DNA of 64,000 nucleotides from assembly GCF_017084525.1 (NCBI RefSeq), contig NZ_CP070950.1:3348001-3412000 (forward strand). The letters run 5' to 3'. The notes under the pieces were generated by a model, which did not search any database, was not told the origin of the DNA, and saw only the letters and a list, made by a program, of their open reading frames with translations. The position numbers and the translations under genes are program-made. Shown here in pieces: positions 21,266 to 52,949 of the stretch. How positions within the stretch are numbered: position 1 is the first letter of the stretch; every line of letters starts with the position of its first letter. The stretch is from Conexibacter sp. SYSU D00693. GTDB lineage: Bacteria; Actinomycetota; Thermoleophilia; Solirubrobacterales; Solirubrobacteraceae.

Positions 21266-21285
21266 AAGGTGCCAGGCACCCTTCA
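21263..21285. repeat. REP-like palindrome, GTGCC-A-GGCAC family, copy 1
   Basis: Arms TGAAAGGTGCC and GGCACCCTTCA around one A, with one mismatch. It begins at the stop codon of the upstream gene and can act as a terminator. Confidence 0.65.
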
Positions 21286-30824: not shown

Positions 30825-30854
30825 GCGAACCAGGGGACAGTCCCCGTCGTCGCA
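30824..30854 (-). repeat. REP sequence, GGGGACTGTCCCC family, copy A
   Basis: 31 bases with core GGGGAC-A-GTCCCC and outer TGCGA / TCGCA ends. It is inverted relative to the two copies around the RAYT gene and abuts the glycerate kinase start codon. Confidence 0.75.
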
Positions 30855-32411: not shown

Positions 32412-32442
32412 TGCGACGAAGGGGACTGTCCCCTTCTTCGCA
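32412..32442 (+). repeat. REP sequence, GGGGACTGTCCCC family, copy B
   Basis: 31 bases with 15-base arms (TGCGACGAAGGGGAC and GTCCCCTTCTTCGCA, one mismatch) around a T. It lies 45 bases upstream of the RAYT start and six bases behind the anti-sigma-like gene. It matches copy C at 29 of 31 positions in the same orientation. Confidence 0.85.
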
Positions 32443-32487: not shown

Positions 32488-33219
32488 ATGGCGAGACATC
32501 CACGGATCGAGATGGCGGGAGCGGTCCACCACGTGACGGCGCGCGCCCCGTCGAACCTCGTGCTGATGCGCGACGACCACGATCGCCGGGCCTACCTGGC
32601 GATGCTGGAGTCCGCCGCGGCGGACTTCGGGTGGTCGGTCCTGTCCTACTGCCTCATGAGCAACCACGTCCACGTGCTCGTGCTCACGCCTGAGGCGAAC
32701 CTCGGCGAGGGCATGCGCCAGGTCCACGGCCGCTTCGCGGTGCACTGCAACCGGCGCTACGAGGAGCACGGCCACGTCTTCGGCGGACGCTTCAAGAACA
32801 AGCTCGTCCTGGACGAGCGCCACTTCCACGCCTGCCTGCGATACATCGCGCGCAACCCCGTCGAAGCCGGTCTCTGCGCGGGCGTCGACGACTGGCCGTG
32901 GAGCGCCCACCGCGCGATCGCCGGCGCGGCGCCGCTGCCGGGCTTCCTCGACGTCGCCGCGTTGTACGCGCGGCTGGGCGTCCCGCGTGAAGAGGGCCGA
33001 CGCCAGTACCTGGCGATCGCCGGCGAGACCGACGACGAGCTCCTGGAGCGGCTGCGGACGACCGGTGGCGCGACGTGGGTCGCGCGTGCTGTCGACGGGC
33101 ACCGCATCCCGGTCGCGAACGTCGCGGCGTTCCTCGGCGTCACCGTGTCGACGGCGTACCGGCGTCTGGCGGACGCGCGTGCGAAGCAGGGGACTGTCCC
33201 CTTCTTCGCAGGTCGCTAG
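32488..33219 (+). CDS. REP-associated tyrosine transposase (RAYT, HUH family)
   Basis: 243 residues from the ATG at 32488 behind AGAGGG. The Y1 transposase signatures are intact: SYCLMSNHVHVLV with the HUH-type His60 and His62, GGRFKNKLVLD, and LRYIARNPVEAGL, with Tyr119 as the probable nucleophile. A C-terminal helix-turn-helix-like part (NVAAFLGVTVSTAYRRLADARAKQ) follows. RAYTs nick single-stranded REP hairpins and are tied to REP spread, mostly as domesticated single-copy genes. Unusually, the last ten or so residues (KQGTVPFFAGR) are encoded by REP copy C. Its stop codon overlaps that of the convergent ligase gene. Confidence 0.9.
   Translation: MARHPRIEMAGAVHHVTARAPSNLVLMRDDHDRRAYLAMLESAAADFGWSVLSYCLMSNHVHVLVLTPEANLGEGMRQVHGRFAVHCNRRYEEHGHVFGGRFKNKLVLDERHFHACLRYIARNPVEAGLCAGVDDWPWSAHRAIAGAAPLPGFLDVAALYARLGVPREEGRRQYLAIAGETDDELLERLRTTGGATWVARAVDGHRIPVANVAAFLGVTVSTAYRRLADARAKQGTVPFFAGR
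33180..33210 (+). repeat. REP sequence, GGGGACTGTCCCC family, copy C
   Basis: 31 bases with arms TGCGAAGCAGGGGAC and GTCCCCTTCTTCGCA around a T, one mismatch. It lies inside the 3' end of the RAYT coding region. Confidence 0.85.
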
Positions 33220-49656: not shown

Positions 49657-50006
49657 TGCTCCAGCACGTCGCCCTCGAACTGCGCGAGGACGACGTCGAG
49701 GCCGAGGCCGCCTTCTGGGCGCTCCTCGGGTTCGCCCGGGTTGACCCGCCGGCCGGGCTGCGTGACCGTTCGGTGTGGGTGCAGCGCGGCGAGCAGCAGA
49801 TCCACCTCCTCCTCGCGGACACGCCCGTGGTCCCGCCGCAGGGCCACGTGGCCGTCGTCGCCGAGGACCACGCGGCGACCGTCGCCACCCTGCGCGACGC
49901 GGGCCACGAGGTCGAGGACCGGGCGCGCCACTGGGGCGCGGCGCGGTGCTTCGCGCGCACGCCGGCCGGCCACCGCGTCGAGGTCATGGAGTTCGCCCCC
50001 TCGTGA
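49656..50006 (+). CDS. VOC-superfamily (glyoxalase/bleomycin-resistance-like) protein
   Basis: 116 residues with the paired beta-alpha-beta-beta-beta modules of the VOC fold: LQHVALELREDDVEAEAAFWALLGFARV, QIHLLLADTP, HVAVVAEDHAATVATLRDAGHEV and CFARTPAGHRVEVMEF. His4 and the final Glu are placed as metal ligands. It is likely a small isomerase, lyase or drug-binding protein, possibly acting with the MBL enzyme encoded upstream as a glyoxalase I/II-like pair. It overlaps both neighbours by stop-start overlap. Confidence 0.78.
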   Translation: MLQHVALELREDDVEAEAAFWALLGFARVDPPAGLRDRSVWVQRGEQQIHLLLADTPVVPPQGHVAVVAEDHAATVATLRDAGHEVEDRARHWGAARCFARTPAGHRVEVMEFAPS

Positions 50007-51526
50007 GCCCGTCCTGGCGGTGGGTGGAGCGCCGGCTCATCGTCTGGAGCCACCTCGTCAACTTGGGCGGGGCGGCGGCGGTGTCCGTCTACTTCCTCGT
50101 GATCCTGCCGCCGGACACGCAGGAGACGAAGGTCTTCAGCGTCCCGATCGGCATCGCCCTCGCCCTGACCGCGGCGCTCGTCGGGGGCTGGAGCGCGCGG
50201 CGCAGCGTGCGGCTGCACGCCCAGCCGGTGCTCGACTGGCTGCCGACGGGCACGCCGCCGACCGACCAGGTGCGCGACATCGCGCTGCGCCTGCCGGCGT
50301 TCATGGCGCGCATCACGGTCGTGCGGTGGGTCCTGGCCGCGGTGGTCTTCGGGCCGCTGGCGCTCATCGACTCGTCGACGCTCGCCGTCGAGCTCGGCAC
50401 GACGCTCCTGGCCAGCGCGTTCACCGTCGCCGCCGCGGAGTTCCTCGTCGCCGAGCGCGTGCTGCGCCCCGTCGTCGCGCGGGTGCTCGACTGGGAGGCG
50501 CCGCCGAGCGCCGGCTCCCTGGGCGTCGGCACCCGCCTGCTGCTGGCGTGGATCCTCTGCACGGCGATCCCCGTCGTGATGCTCGCGATGATCCCGGTGG
50601 GGCGCGACGTCGAGACGGCCGACGAGCTCGTCGCGCCGATCTGGTTCGTCGCCGTCGCCACCCTGTGCGCCGGCTTCCTGGCGACGAAGCTCGCGACGAA
50701 CCGCGTCGCCGTGCCGCTGCGCGAGCTGCGCGAGGCGACCGACGCCGTGGGCCGCGGCGACCTGCGCGTCCGCGTCCCGGTCGACGACGCGTCCGAGGTG
50801 GGTCGTCTCCAGGCCGGCTTCAACCAGCTCGTCGCCGGCCTGCAGGAGCGCGAGCGCCTGCGCGACCTCATGGACCGCTCGATGGGGCGCGACGTCGCTC
50901 GCGAGGCGCTCGAGCGCGGCGCCGCCCTCGGCGGGCAGGTCCGCACGGTGAGCGTCCTGTTCGTCGACGTCGTCGGCTCGACCGCGCTGGCCTCCCGCGA
51001 GCGCCCCGAGCGCGTCGTCGAGCTCCTCAACGCGTTCTTCACGAGCGTCGTCGAGACCGTCGAGCGCCACGGCGGCTTCGTGAACAAGTTCGAGGGCGAC
51101 GCGGCGCTGTGCATCTTCGGCGCGCCCGCCGACCAGCCCGCCCACGCGACGTGCGCGCTGGCCGCGGCCCGCGACCTGCGCGGCGTGCTCGACGCCTGGC
51201 GCGGGCTCGACGCCGGCATCGGGGTCTCCTGCGGCGAGGCGGTCGCCGGCTGGATCGGCGCGGAGTCGCGCTTCGAGTACACCGTCATCGGCGACCCGGT
51301 CAACGAGGCCGCACGCCTCACGGAGCTGGCCAAGGACCGCGACGGCGGGCTGCTCGCCAGCGCCACGACCATCGACGCCGCCGACCCCGAGGAGCGCGAG
51401 CACTGGCGCGTGGACGGCGAGGTCCTGCTGCGCGGCCGGCCGGCACCGACGCGGCTGGCGGTGCCGCGGCTGACGGCCGAGCCGACGGCTCCGGCCCCCG
51501 CGGAGGCGGTGCGGCGCGAGGTGTGA
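50003..51526 (+). CDS. Membrane-bound class III adenylate/guanylate cyclase with HAMP domain
   Basis: 507 residues from a GTG that overlaps the VOC stop (GTGA). Six hydrophobic helices (about 10-240) are followed by a HAMP linker (ATKLATNRVAVPLRELREATDAVGRGDLRVRVPV) and a class III cyclase domain: VSVLFVDVVGSTALASRE with the first metal Asp, NKFEGDAALCIFGAP with Lys and second Asp, and FEYTVIGDPVNEAARLTELA with the base-recognition and transition-state residues Asn and Arg. The six-helix-HAMP form is typical of actinobacterial Rv1318c-like cyclases. Its TGA lies inside a large palindrome at 51517-51567. Confidence 0.88.
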   Translation: MSPSWRWVERRLIVWSHLVNLGGAAAVSVYFLVILPPDTQETKVFSVPIGIALALTAALVGGWSARRSVRLHAQPVLDWLPTGTPPTDQVRDIALRLPAFMARITVVRWVLAAVVFGPLALIDSSTLAVELGTTLLASAFTVAAAEFLVAERVLRPVVARVLDWEAPPSAGSLGVGTRLLLAWILCTAIPVVMLAMIPVGRDVETADELVAPIWFVAVATLCAGFLATKLATNRVAVPLRELREATDAVGRGDLRVRVPVDDASEVGRLQAGFNQLVAGLQERERLRDLMDRSMGRDVAREALERGAALGGQVRTVSVLFVDVVGSTALASRERPERVVELLNAFFTSVVETVERHGGFVNKFEGDAALCIFGAPADQPAHATCALAAARDLRGVLDAWRGLDAGIGVSCGEAVAGWIGAESRFEYTVIGDPVNEAARLTELAKDRDGGLLASATTIDAADPEEREHWRVDGEVLLRGRPAPTRLAVPRLTAEPTAPAPAEAVRREV

Positions 51527-51567
51527 CCGTTCGAGCATCCCGTGGATGCTCGAACGGTCACACCTCG
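51517..51567. repeat. Perfect 24-base inverted repeat, left end of DUF559 cassette
   Basis: Arms 51517-51540 and 51544-51567 are exact reverse complements around CGT. The palindrome carries the stop codons of both convergent genes: TGA at 51524-51526 (cyclase) and the minus-strand TGA at 51558-51560 (DUF559 gene). The part 51520-51540 recurs exactly at 52402-52422. Confidence 0.9.
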
Positions 51568-52424
51568 GCGAGCGCGGCCCGCAGCGCGGCGATGACGGCT
51601 CCAGGCTGCTCGCGGATCTGGACGCGGTTGAAGCGCAGCAGCTGCCAGCCCTTGGCCACGGCCCGGGCGTTGCGCTCGTGGTCGGCGAGCCACTGGCGCT
51701 GGTTGCCGTGGAACGTCCAGCTGTCGGCCTCCAGGGCCACCTTGCGCTCGGGCCACGCGAAGTCGACGTGGTGCCGCGGCCCCAGGCGGAACTGCCCGAC
51801 GGGCATCGGCAGGCCCGCCGCCCGGCAGAGCTCCCGCACGTCGACCTCGAGGGCGGAGTGCGTGCCGTCCGCCAGCCGGCCCAGGAGGACGTCGATCGTG
51901 CGCGCGCCGCGGTGACCCCGGAGGTCGGCGCCGCGAAGCCGCTCGACGTCGAGCACCTTGCGGTGGAGCGCCTCCATCGCCGCGTCCAGCACCAGGGCCT
52001 CGGGCAGCACGCCGGCCAGGTCCAGGATCGTCCTCGTCGCCGTCGTGAAGGCCATCCCGTCGCGACGCTGGACGTCGGCCGCGGGCAGCCGACGTGTGCG
52101 ATGGACGACGATGCCGGGCTGGCTGCGCGCACGCCTGAGCGTCAGGACGTGGACCGGCCCGTCTCGCCACGCGAGAAGTCGGTGCCAGGCCGCCGCGGAC
52201 TCGTGGCTCAGGACGCCGCCCGTGGCCAGCACCGCCGCGACGCATCGGGCGGAGGGCGTCAGCGTCGGCGTGACGCTGTAGACGCCGACGTGCACGAGGT
52301 GCAGCCAGCCCGAGCGTCGGGCCGACTCGATCGCGCCGCGCCCCCAGCCCGCCTCGACGAGCTGGACACGCGTCACGAGGTTCTGCTGCCGGCGAAGGTG
52401 GGGTGTGACCGTTCGAGCATCCAC
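51558..52424 (-). CDS. DUF559 (Vsr-like endonuclease) protein with AbiEi-type N-terminus
   Basis: 288 residues from a GTG at 52424 that lies within the repeat; a GTG at 52376 would remove the first 16 residues. Residues about 15-120 are a winged-helix and beta domain like those of AbiEi-type antitoxins (LVTRVQLVEAGWGRGAIESARRSGWLHLVHVGVY, HESAAAWHRLL). Residues 185-288 are the DUF559/Vsr-like PD-(D/E)XK nuclease: Glu193 (ALEVDVREL), Asp221 (HHVDFAWP), Glu232-x-Asp234 (ALEADSWTFHG), and RNARAVAKGWQLLRF. The nuclease residues look intact. The eight first codons and the stop codon are part of the flanking palindromes. Confidence 0.78.
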   Translation of the reverse strand: MDARTVTPHLRRQQNLVTRVQLVEAGWGRGAIESARRSGWLHLVHVGVYSVTPTLTPSARCVAAVLATGGVLSHESAAAWHRLLAWRDGPVHVLTLRRARSQPGIVVHRTRRLPAADVQRRDGMAFTTATRTILDLAGVLPEALVLDAAMEALHRKVLDVERLRGADLRGHRGARTIDVLLGRLADGTHSALEVDVRELCRAAGLPMPVGQFRLGPRHHVDFAWPERKVALEADSWTFHGNQRQWLADHERNARAVAKGWQLLRFNRVQIREQPGAVIAALRAALAEV

Positions 52425-52446
52425 TGCATGCTCTAGGGGTCACACC
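52402..52446. repeat. Decayed palindrome, right end of DUF559 cassette
   Basis: Arms 52402-52420 and 52428-52446 pair with three mismatches over a seven-base centre. The left arm plus two bases (52402-52422) is identical to 51520-51540. The centre holds the GTG start of the DUF559 gene. Confidence 0.8.
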
Positions 52447-52469
52447 TCCCGAGTTCGCCCCCCTGAGCG

Positions 52470-52949
52470 CTACTCCTCGTCCAGGCGCCCGCGCAGGAAC
52501 AGCCGCCGCGGCCCGCCCGGGACGCGCTCCGGCGTGAGCCCGAAGGACGCGTAGAGGGCCAGCGCCGGGGCGTTGTCCTCGTGCGTGTCGAGCTCGAGGA
52601 GGCGCGCGCCGCGCTCGTGCGCGCGGGCGACGACCGCCTCCATCATCGCCCGGCCCAGGCCGGTCCCGCGGGCGTCCTCGCGCACGAAGAGGTCCTCGAG
52701 CAGGCACTCGGTCCCCGCGCGCCAGATGCCGAAGCGGTAGCGCAGCTGGGCGACGGCCGCGGGCGGCGCGTCGTCGTGCGGGGCGCCGAGCAGGAAGTCG
52801 GCGTTGCGGTCCTCCATGACGCGCTCGACGCCGGCGAGCATCGCGTTGTCCGAGGGCCAGTCCTCCTCGAAGTGGTTGCGGAAGGCGATGAGGAGGTTCG
52901 CCACGTGCTCGGCCTCGTGCGGGCCGGCGAGCCAGGTGCGGGCGGTCAC
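52470..52949 (-). CDS. GNAT family N-acetyltransferase
   Basis: 159 residues from a GTG at 52949. The GNAT motif A is ECLLEDLFVREDARGTGLGRAMMEAVVARAHERGARLLELDTHEDNAPALALYASFGL, with the acetyl-CoA pyrophosphate loop RxxGxG/A as ARGTGLG and the C-terminal NxxAxxLYxxxGF signature. It should transfer an acetyl group to an amine of a small molecule or protein. It lies downstream of the alpha/beta hydrolase gene by 21 bases on the same strand, and in front of the DUF559 cassette. Confidence 0.88.
   Translation of the reverse strand: MTARTWLAGPHEAEHVANLLIAFRNHFEEDWPSDNAMLAGVERVMEDRNADFLLGAPHDDAPPAAVAQLRYRFGIWRAGTECLLEDLFVREDARGTGLGRAMMEAVVARAHERGARLLELDTHEDNAPALALYASFGLTPERVPGGPRRLFLRGRLDEE

Follow-up and report, generated by a model that had tools for sequence, protein, structure and literature searches.

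AbiEi-DUF559 nucleases as probable partners of dispersed palindromic repeats in Conexibacter and other Actinobacteria

A nuclease gene that begins and ends within copies of one palindrome

A 64,000-nucleotide stretch of Conexibacter sp. SYSU D00693 (contig NZ_CP070950.1, positions 3,348,001 to 3,412,000; hereafter the window) contains a gene for a DUF559 nuclease with an AbiEi region, which starts in one copy of a large palindrome and stops in another. The analysis of this gene and its relatives suggests that AbiEi-DUF559 proteins are dedicated partners of palindromic repeats dispersed through the same genomes. The features at the locus are as follows (window positions).

51517..51567, no strand: palindrome at the 3' end of the nuclease gene, with perfect 24-nt arms and a 3-nt spacer
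52402..52446, no strand: decayed copy of the palindrome at the 5' end of the gene, centred on the GTG start codon at 52422-52424
51558..52424, minus strand: AbiEi-DUF559 protein of 288 amino acids (open reading frame [ORF], domain matches, AlphaFold2 model)
49775..51526, plus strand: neighbouring HAMP and adenylate/guanylate cyclase gene (start from the mechanical ORF, stop within the palindrome)
52470..52949, minus strand: neighbouring GNAT acetyltransferase gene (ORF and domain search)

The 3'-end palindrome (arms, 51517-51540 and 51544-51567) contains the stop codons of both the nuclease gene and the convergent cyclase gene, the former in the right arm and the latter a TGA at 51524-51526. 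In the 5'-end copy the arms (52402-52423 and 52425-52446) are 82% complementary. The two 47-nt copies are 87% identical, and a 21-nt direct repeat, GGTGTGACCGTTCGAGCATCC, is present in both without a mismatch (51520-51540 and 52402-52422). A TGA within the 52402-52446 palindrome opens the DUF559 frame; between this TGA and the conserved DUF559 protein there is no start codon other than the GTG in the centre of that palindrome. A preliminary description, made from the sequence alone, had reported the perfect inverted repeat, its decayed copy, and the direct repeat, the start of the gene in the centre of one copy and its end in the other, and a cyclase stop codon supplied by the repeat; the coordinates and identities given above bear out each of these statements.

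The palindrome at 51517-51567 (score, 24) was the sole palindrome in the window with a score of ≥14, compared to one palindrome, with a score of 14, in ten Markov shuffles of the window taken together. The palindrome half-site had four matches in the window and none in 100 shuffles. Convergent stop codons within a palindrome are what might be expected of an ordinary transcription terminator. However, a T-run was absent on both sides of the window palindrome, copies are present at both ends of the gene, counts are far above those in shuffled or Markov sequence, and the gene-specific dispersed families described below in themselves refute chance. Thus, it is extremely improbable that these are ordinary terminators or chance palindromes. 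Comparison of the hairpins with Rfam yielded only implausible microRNA matches.

Ahead of the upstream palindrome, at 52447-52463, is a GGGGGGCGAGTTTC-like stretch (plus strand, CCCGAGTTCGCCCCCC). Similar stretches are found ahead of the upstream palindromes of several genes (for example, at L045, L038, L069, and L043), though the palindromes differ. It is possible that this stretch is a promoter or the end of an element.

Predicted structure of the AbiEi-DUF559 protein

Pfam models matched the window protein at residues 8-51 (AbiEi_4) and 218-284 (DUF559), with an additional match to the related MTES_1575 nuclease model, and PADLOC identified it as AbiEi (E value, 2.9e-23). An AlphaFold2 model built from 56 relatives (mean pLDDT [predicted local distance difference test score], 93.7) divides the protein into two parts.

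51870..52424, minus strand: residues 1-185, AbiEi antitoxin fold with a DNA-binding and a second domain (6y8q, PADLOC)
51561..51857, minus strand: residues 190-288, Vsr/EDxHD-type nuclease domain (3r3p, 3hrl, and 1cw0 matches)

In the model, residues 1-185 resemble the AbiEi antitoxin 6y8q (Z, 12.6 over 177 residues). The solved nuclease structure closest to residues 190-288 is that of the homing endonuclease I-Bth0305I (3r3p; Z, 13.8; root-mean-square deviation, 2.0 over 93 residues), and matches were also obtained to the Neisseria protein 3hrl (Z, 12.9) and to Vsr (1cw0; Z, 10.8). The Vsr-like fold previously attributed to DUF559 is thus supported by the predicted structure. The catalytic residues D221 and E232 are invariant across the 56 relatives, and D234, H239, D248, and R251 are nearly so, in agreement with the earlier statement that the nuclease residues are intact.

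No gene for the AbiEii (DUF1814) toxin is adjacent, the neighbours being the cyclase and GNAT genes. Relatives of the window protein were found neither in a phage collection nor in viral contigs; plasmids contained five weak relatives, and a scan of genome contigs recovered one, on a contig of a metagenome-assembled Conexibacter genome.

Published AbiEi proteins bind inverted repeats and thereby autoregulate (PMC7319586), and I-Bth0305I reportedly forms a dimer on a target of nearly 60 bp (PMC3943268), a length similar to that of the palindromes flanking DUF559 genes. By analogy, the window protein may couple AbiEi-like binding of inverted repeats to an I-Bth0305I-like long target.

Eight palindrome families in one genome

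The Conexibacter genome (4.43 Mb, one contig) has nine DUF559 matches. Eight of these, all AbiEi-DUF559 genes, carry large palindromes on one side or on both, and every palindrome sequence is different. When the genome was searched with these palindromes, 53 places were found, 12 at the genes and 41 elsewhere, in eight families, seven of which have dispersed copies. The number of solo copies was 11 for the family of the gene at L032, 7 for L027, 6 for L028, 5 for L029, 5 for the window family, 4 for L026, 3 for L030, and 0 for L031. Six copies of the window family are ∼50 nt long, and a shared GTAG/CGTC tag was not apparent among them on inspection.

An unbiased census was made of 60 evenly spaced 20-kb pieces (1.2 of the 4.43 Mb; score, ≥14) that were chosen without reference to the families. 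It yielded 50 palindromes, compared to none in 0.3 Mb of second-order Markov sequence. Twelve of the 50 belong to DUF559-linked families, 5 to the family of a Y1 transposase gene in the window, and 10 to a GGTGCCTGGCACC family, which has one copy next to another Y1 gene.

Solo palindromes are largely extragenic: 23 of the 24 examined were outside genes as called with a GC-pattern heuristic, compared to 28% of random positions. Nine of these intergenic solos were between convergent genes, 13 between tandem genes, and 1 between divergent genes. Palindromes of different families cluster 70 to 330 nt apart. In the L032 and L027 families, many solos are embedded in larger shared repeats, like mosaic REP (repetitive extragenic palindrome) elements; solos of the L032 family are often in repeats of 100 to 400 nt. 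A second motif, CACYGAGGRGGGGAA, recurs around many solos of these two families (L097, L106, L109, L115, L116, L136, and L137), frequently as inverted pairs, and so places their palindromes within larger mosaic repeats. The paralogues at L028, L030, and L032 are 66 to 72% identical, but their palindromes are unrelated, indicating faster change in the repeat than in the protein, with the ends of each gene remaining matched.

These distributions bear on the possibility that the AbiEi-DUF559 protein binds the palindromes (as operators, a regulon, or chromosome-organising sites) without mobilising them. AbiEi proteins do autoregulate via inverted repeats (PMC7319586), and one palindrome of the window spans the start codon. 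However, an operator would not be expected to recur at the 3' end of the gene, and most solos follow genes, with only 1 of 24 between divergent genes. Furthermore, copies share 100 to 400 nt of flanking sequence, which indicates spread by copying. An exclusively binding role therefore appears improbable.

Independence from Y1 transposases

Dispersed palindromes are common in bacterial genomes, and REP-associated tyrosine transposases (RAYTs) have been proposed as their dedicated enzymes; RAYTs are thought to spread REPs through binding, cutting, and copying. The Conexibacter genome has three Y1 transposase genes. One of them lies in the window between palindromes of its own and provides a useful internal comparison.

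32575-32850: Y1 transposase (RAYT-like) gene, flanked by palindromes at 32412-32442 and 33180-33210

The flanking palindromes are of a GAAG-AGGGGACTGTCCCCTTCTTCGCA type whose members recur in the genome. With three Y1 genes available, the palindromes might have been moved by a RAYT or another transposase, the DUF559 genes being merely nearby. However, in the census the Y1-linked palindromes form a family separate from the DUF559-linked ones, and the one-to-one, gene-specific pairing would be left unexplained. Furthermore, no Y1 match (PF01797) was found in four genomes that have dispersed DUF559-linked palindromes (G017, G020, G011, and G002), and the pattern is thus independent of Y1. It is unlikely that the DUF559-linked pattern is a RAYT effect, and a transposase of any kind acting beside bystander DUF559 genes is a very remote prospect. 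The window protein itself has no Y1 domain detectable in a Pfam search and so lacks the Y1/HUH feature of RAYTs and REPtrons.

The GGTGCCTGGCACC palindromes form a dispersed family, found at 21269 and 21317 in the window, at L365:1837, and at the ten census places. Besides these two close copies, the window has a GGGGACTGTCCCC-type site at 30833. The copy beside a Y1 gene is at G000:C1:2918729.

Matched ends and private repeats in other genomes

In order to compare gene ends, start-region and stop-region sequences were considered matched when their similarity exceeded that of 99.9% of mismatched pairs. Matched ends were found for 20 of 56 DUF559 genes in the window's genome and relatives in the order, and for 18 of 38 in a phylum sample. 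Across the Actinobacteria the count was 36 of 87 DUF559 genes, compared to 4 of 116 for other ORFs at these loci that served as controls (Fisher P, ∼1e-11). Of 38 cases, 27 had the stop codon inside the downstream repeat. A start codon near the centre of the upstream repeat was found in ∼10 of 22 genes in the order, an arrangement that is not general in the phylum.

The preliminary description had expected its palindrome around other DUF559 genes. The same sequence is absent from them, but other DUF559 genes have palindromes of their own, which recur in their own genome and almost nowhere else. Own-genome places numbered ∼18 in G036, ∼25 (one family) in G050, and ∼13 in G037, with several each in G001, G003, G005, G006, G008, and G017; in G017 the copies are doublets ∼61 to 68 nt apart. 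Two sets of foreign palindromes used as queries against the window's genome gave one weak match and none, respectively.

Four control ORFs among the 116 have matched ends, as noted. At one DUF559 gene (L251, in G021) inverted repeats of ∼230 nt, made of several shorter repeat units, are present at both ends.

The fumC locus and what multiplies

Between fumC and a convergent glycosidase-like gene, the order palindrome-gene-palindrome is found in G001, G002, G005, and G006, and probably in G004, where it is seen from one side. In G003 the same locus has a single 41-nt palindrome in a 60-nt gap and no nuclease gene; the palindrome belongs to a family whose gene is elsewhere in G003. The fumC locus of the window's genome has a different neighbour and is therefore uninformative, and a search of the genus for an empty site at the window locus found no close syntenic relative of the cyclase neighbour. 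In having a palindrome but lacking the gene, the G003 site agrees with the preliminary description.

Among the palindrome families seen, none had a second nuclease gene, and solos number up to ∼25 per family. At fumC the nuclease gene appears to have been kept vertically in five species. Together these observations indicate that the palindromes, not the gene, multiplied. The earlier suggestion that the nuclease gene is itself a jumping cassette fits poorly with families of one gene and several solos, and it is less supported than the analogy to REP/RAYT systems.

A homing-type element would have the nuclease cut solo palindromes and the gene copied in by break repair, the solos being vacant targets or remnants of recombination between flanking palindromes. 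The position of the gene between two copies of its presumed target, the kinship of the nuclease domain to the EDxHD homing endonuclease I-Bth0305I, and the gene-less site in G003 would all fit. However, homing predicts several gene copies per palindrome family, and no such families were seen, whereas solos reach ∼11 to 25 per family. In addition, intact palindromes beside the gene would leave it unprotected from its own enzyme. Homing thus seems rather unlikely.

A probable RAYT-like partnership with an unrelated enzyme

We consider it probable that AbiEi-DUF559 proteins are dedicated partners of dispersed palindromic repeats, comparable to RAYTs and REPs but with an unrelated enzyme. The proteins combine AbiEi and DUF559 domains, their genes have matched ends, and the private repeat families are dispersed, largely extragenic, independent of Y1, and represented at a site without the gene. 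In the mechanism that we propose, a single-copy gene lies between two copies of its own 40- to 60-bp palindrome. Binding to the palindrome would probably be through the AbiEi region, acting as a dimer, and the Vsr/EDxHD nuclease domain probably nicks or cuts there. Repair or copying would then seed solo palindromes in the same genome, alone or in larger mosaic repeats and mostly outside genes. The ends of one gene would stay matched while the palindrome sequence turns over fast, giving each gene a private repeat family.

Several observations weigh against this interpretation. The L031 palindrome has no dispersed copies in its own genome, and for ∼60% of the 87 DUF559 genes matched ends could not be detected. 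At fumC, the palindrome of G003 is of a different family from those of the other species and thus does not reflect simple loss of the same element; it may be an independent insertion. The larger L032 repeats suggest that the mobile unit may be other than the palindrome, and the unrelated palindromes of L028, L030, and L032 mean that specificity would have to change very fast. No movement was observed in the analysis, and the sample holds no closely related strains in which the presence or absence of a solo at one site could be compared.

Like REP/RAYT systems (REPtrons) and TIRtrons, the AbiEi-DUF559 loci have a single enzyme gene flanked on both sides by a palindromic repeat that is enzyme specific and dispersed mostly outside genes, with doublets and mosaic clusters; the REP/RAYT-like logic that the preliminary description had proposed for a Vsr-like nuclease is supported to this extent. 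Unlike these systems, they have an AbiEi region and a Vsr/EDxHD nuclease instead of an HUH Y1 transposase, and unlike REPs their palindromes are ∼40 to 60 nt and differ from gene to gene. Thus, by sequence and fold the AbiEi-DUF559 protein is not a RAYT, and the likeness would lie in its way of working. The nuclease fold, acidic active-site residues, and possibly the long target, as reported for I-Bth0305I, are common to EDxHD homing endonucleases and Vsr, which differ in having no AbiEi DNA-binding region; moreover, the AbiEi-DUF559 genes are associated with no intron or intein, and one gene has many solo sites. The N-terminal AbiEi fold, with inverted-repeat binding in known cases, is shared with AbiE type IV toxin-antitoxin systems, from which the absence of an adjacent AbiEii toxin, the nuclease fusion, and the dispersal of the repeats set these loci apart.

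Short DUF559 genes outside the Actinobacteria

In Sinorhizobium meliloti, Neisseria, Azospirillum, Deinococcus, and E. coli (ycjD), short DUF559 genes that lack AbiEi adjoin or sit between dispersed CCCTCACCCTAACCCTCTCCC-type palindromic repeats (L294, L293, L291, L297, and L299). Box C- or RIME-like repeats are beside or around the gene at a few loci in Sinorhizobium, Neisseria, Azospirillum, and Deinococcus, and the S. meliloti repeat is found at at least 39 places in the pSymB record. A clear CGTC REP was not found beside the proteobacterial DUF559 genes examined. CGTC-tagged REPs and box C- and RIME-like repeats of Proteobacteria are dispersed palindromes like those described here, but the DUF559 genes that some of them flank lack AbiEi and the link is confined to a few loci, making this a separate, weaker lead. 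In some E. coli strains the ycjD region beside sapF is replaced by an MFS/RND efflux operon or an SMI1/KNR4 gene (L300, L301, L302, and L303); because ycjD is replaced by the efflux operon, its presence and absence was rejected as a clean empty site.

Implications

To our knowledge, the DUF559 nuclease family has no known function, and no enzyme is known for the box C-, RIME-, and CGTC-type repeats of Proteobacteria. In the open-access literature searched, which excludes most subscription journals and bioRxiv, DUF559 was not relevantly paired with palindromes, AbiEi, or ycjD, and a search for palindromic repeats linked to nucleases yielded RAYT studies only; provisionally, the AbiEi-DUF559/palindrome partnership is new. 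More tentatively, DUF559 nucleases could be a second, non-HUH class of enzymes that generates and maintains dispersed bacterial palindromes across the Actinobacteria, and perhaps the box C-, RIME-, and CGTC-type repeats of Proteobacteria, with the specificity of enzyme for repeat continually re-invented. If so, a role could be assigned to a nuclease family that is abundant in some Actinobacteria, the origin of palindromes in genomes without RAYTs would become directly testable, and naturally matched pairs of enzyme and palindrome would be a source of new long-site DNA-binding nucleases.
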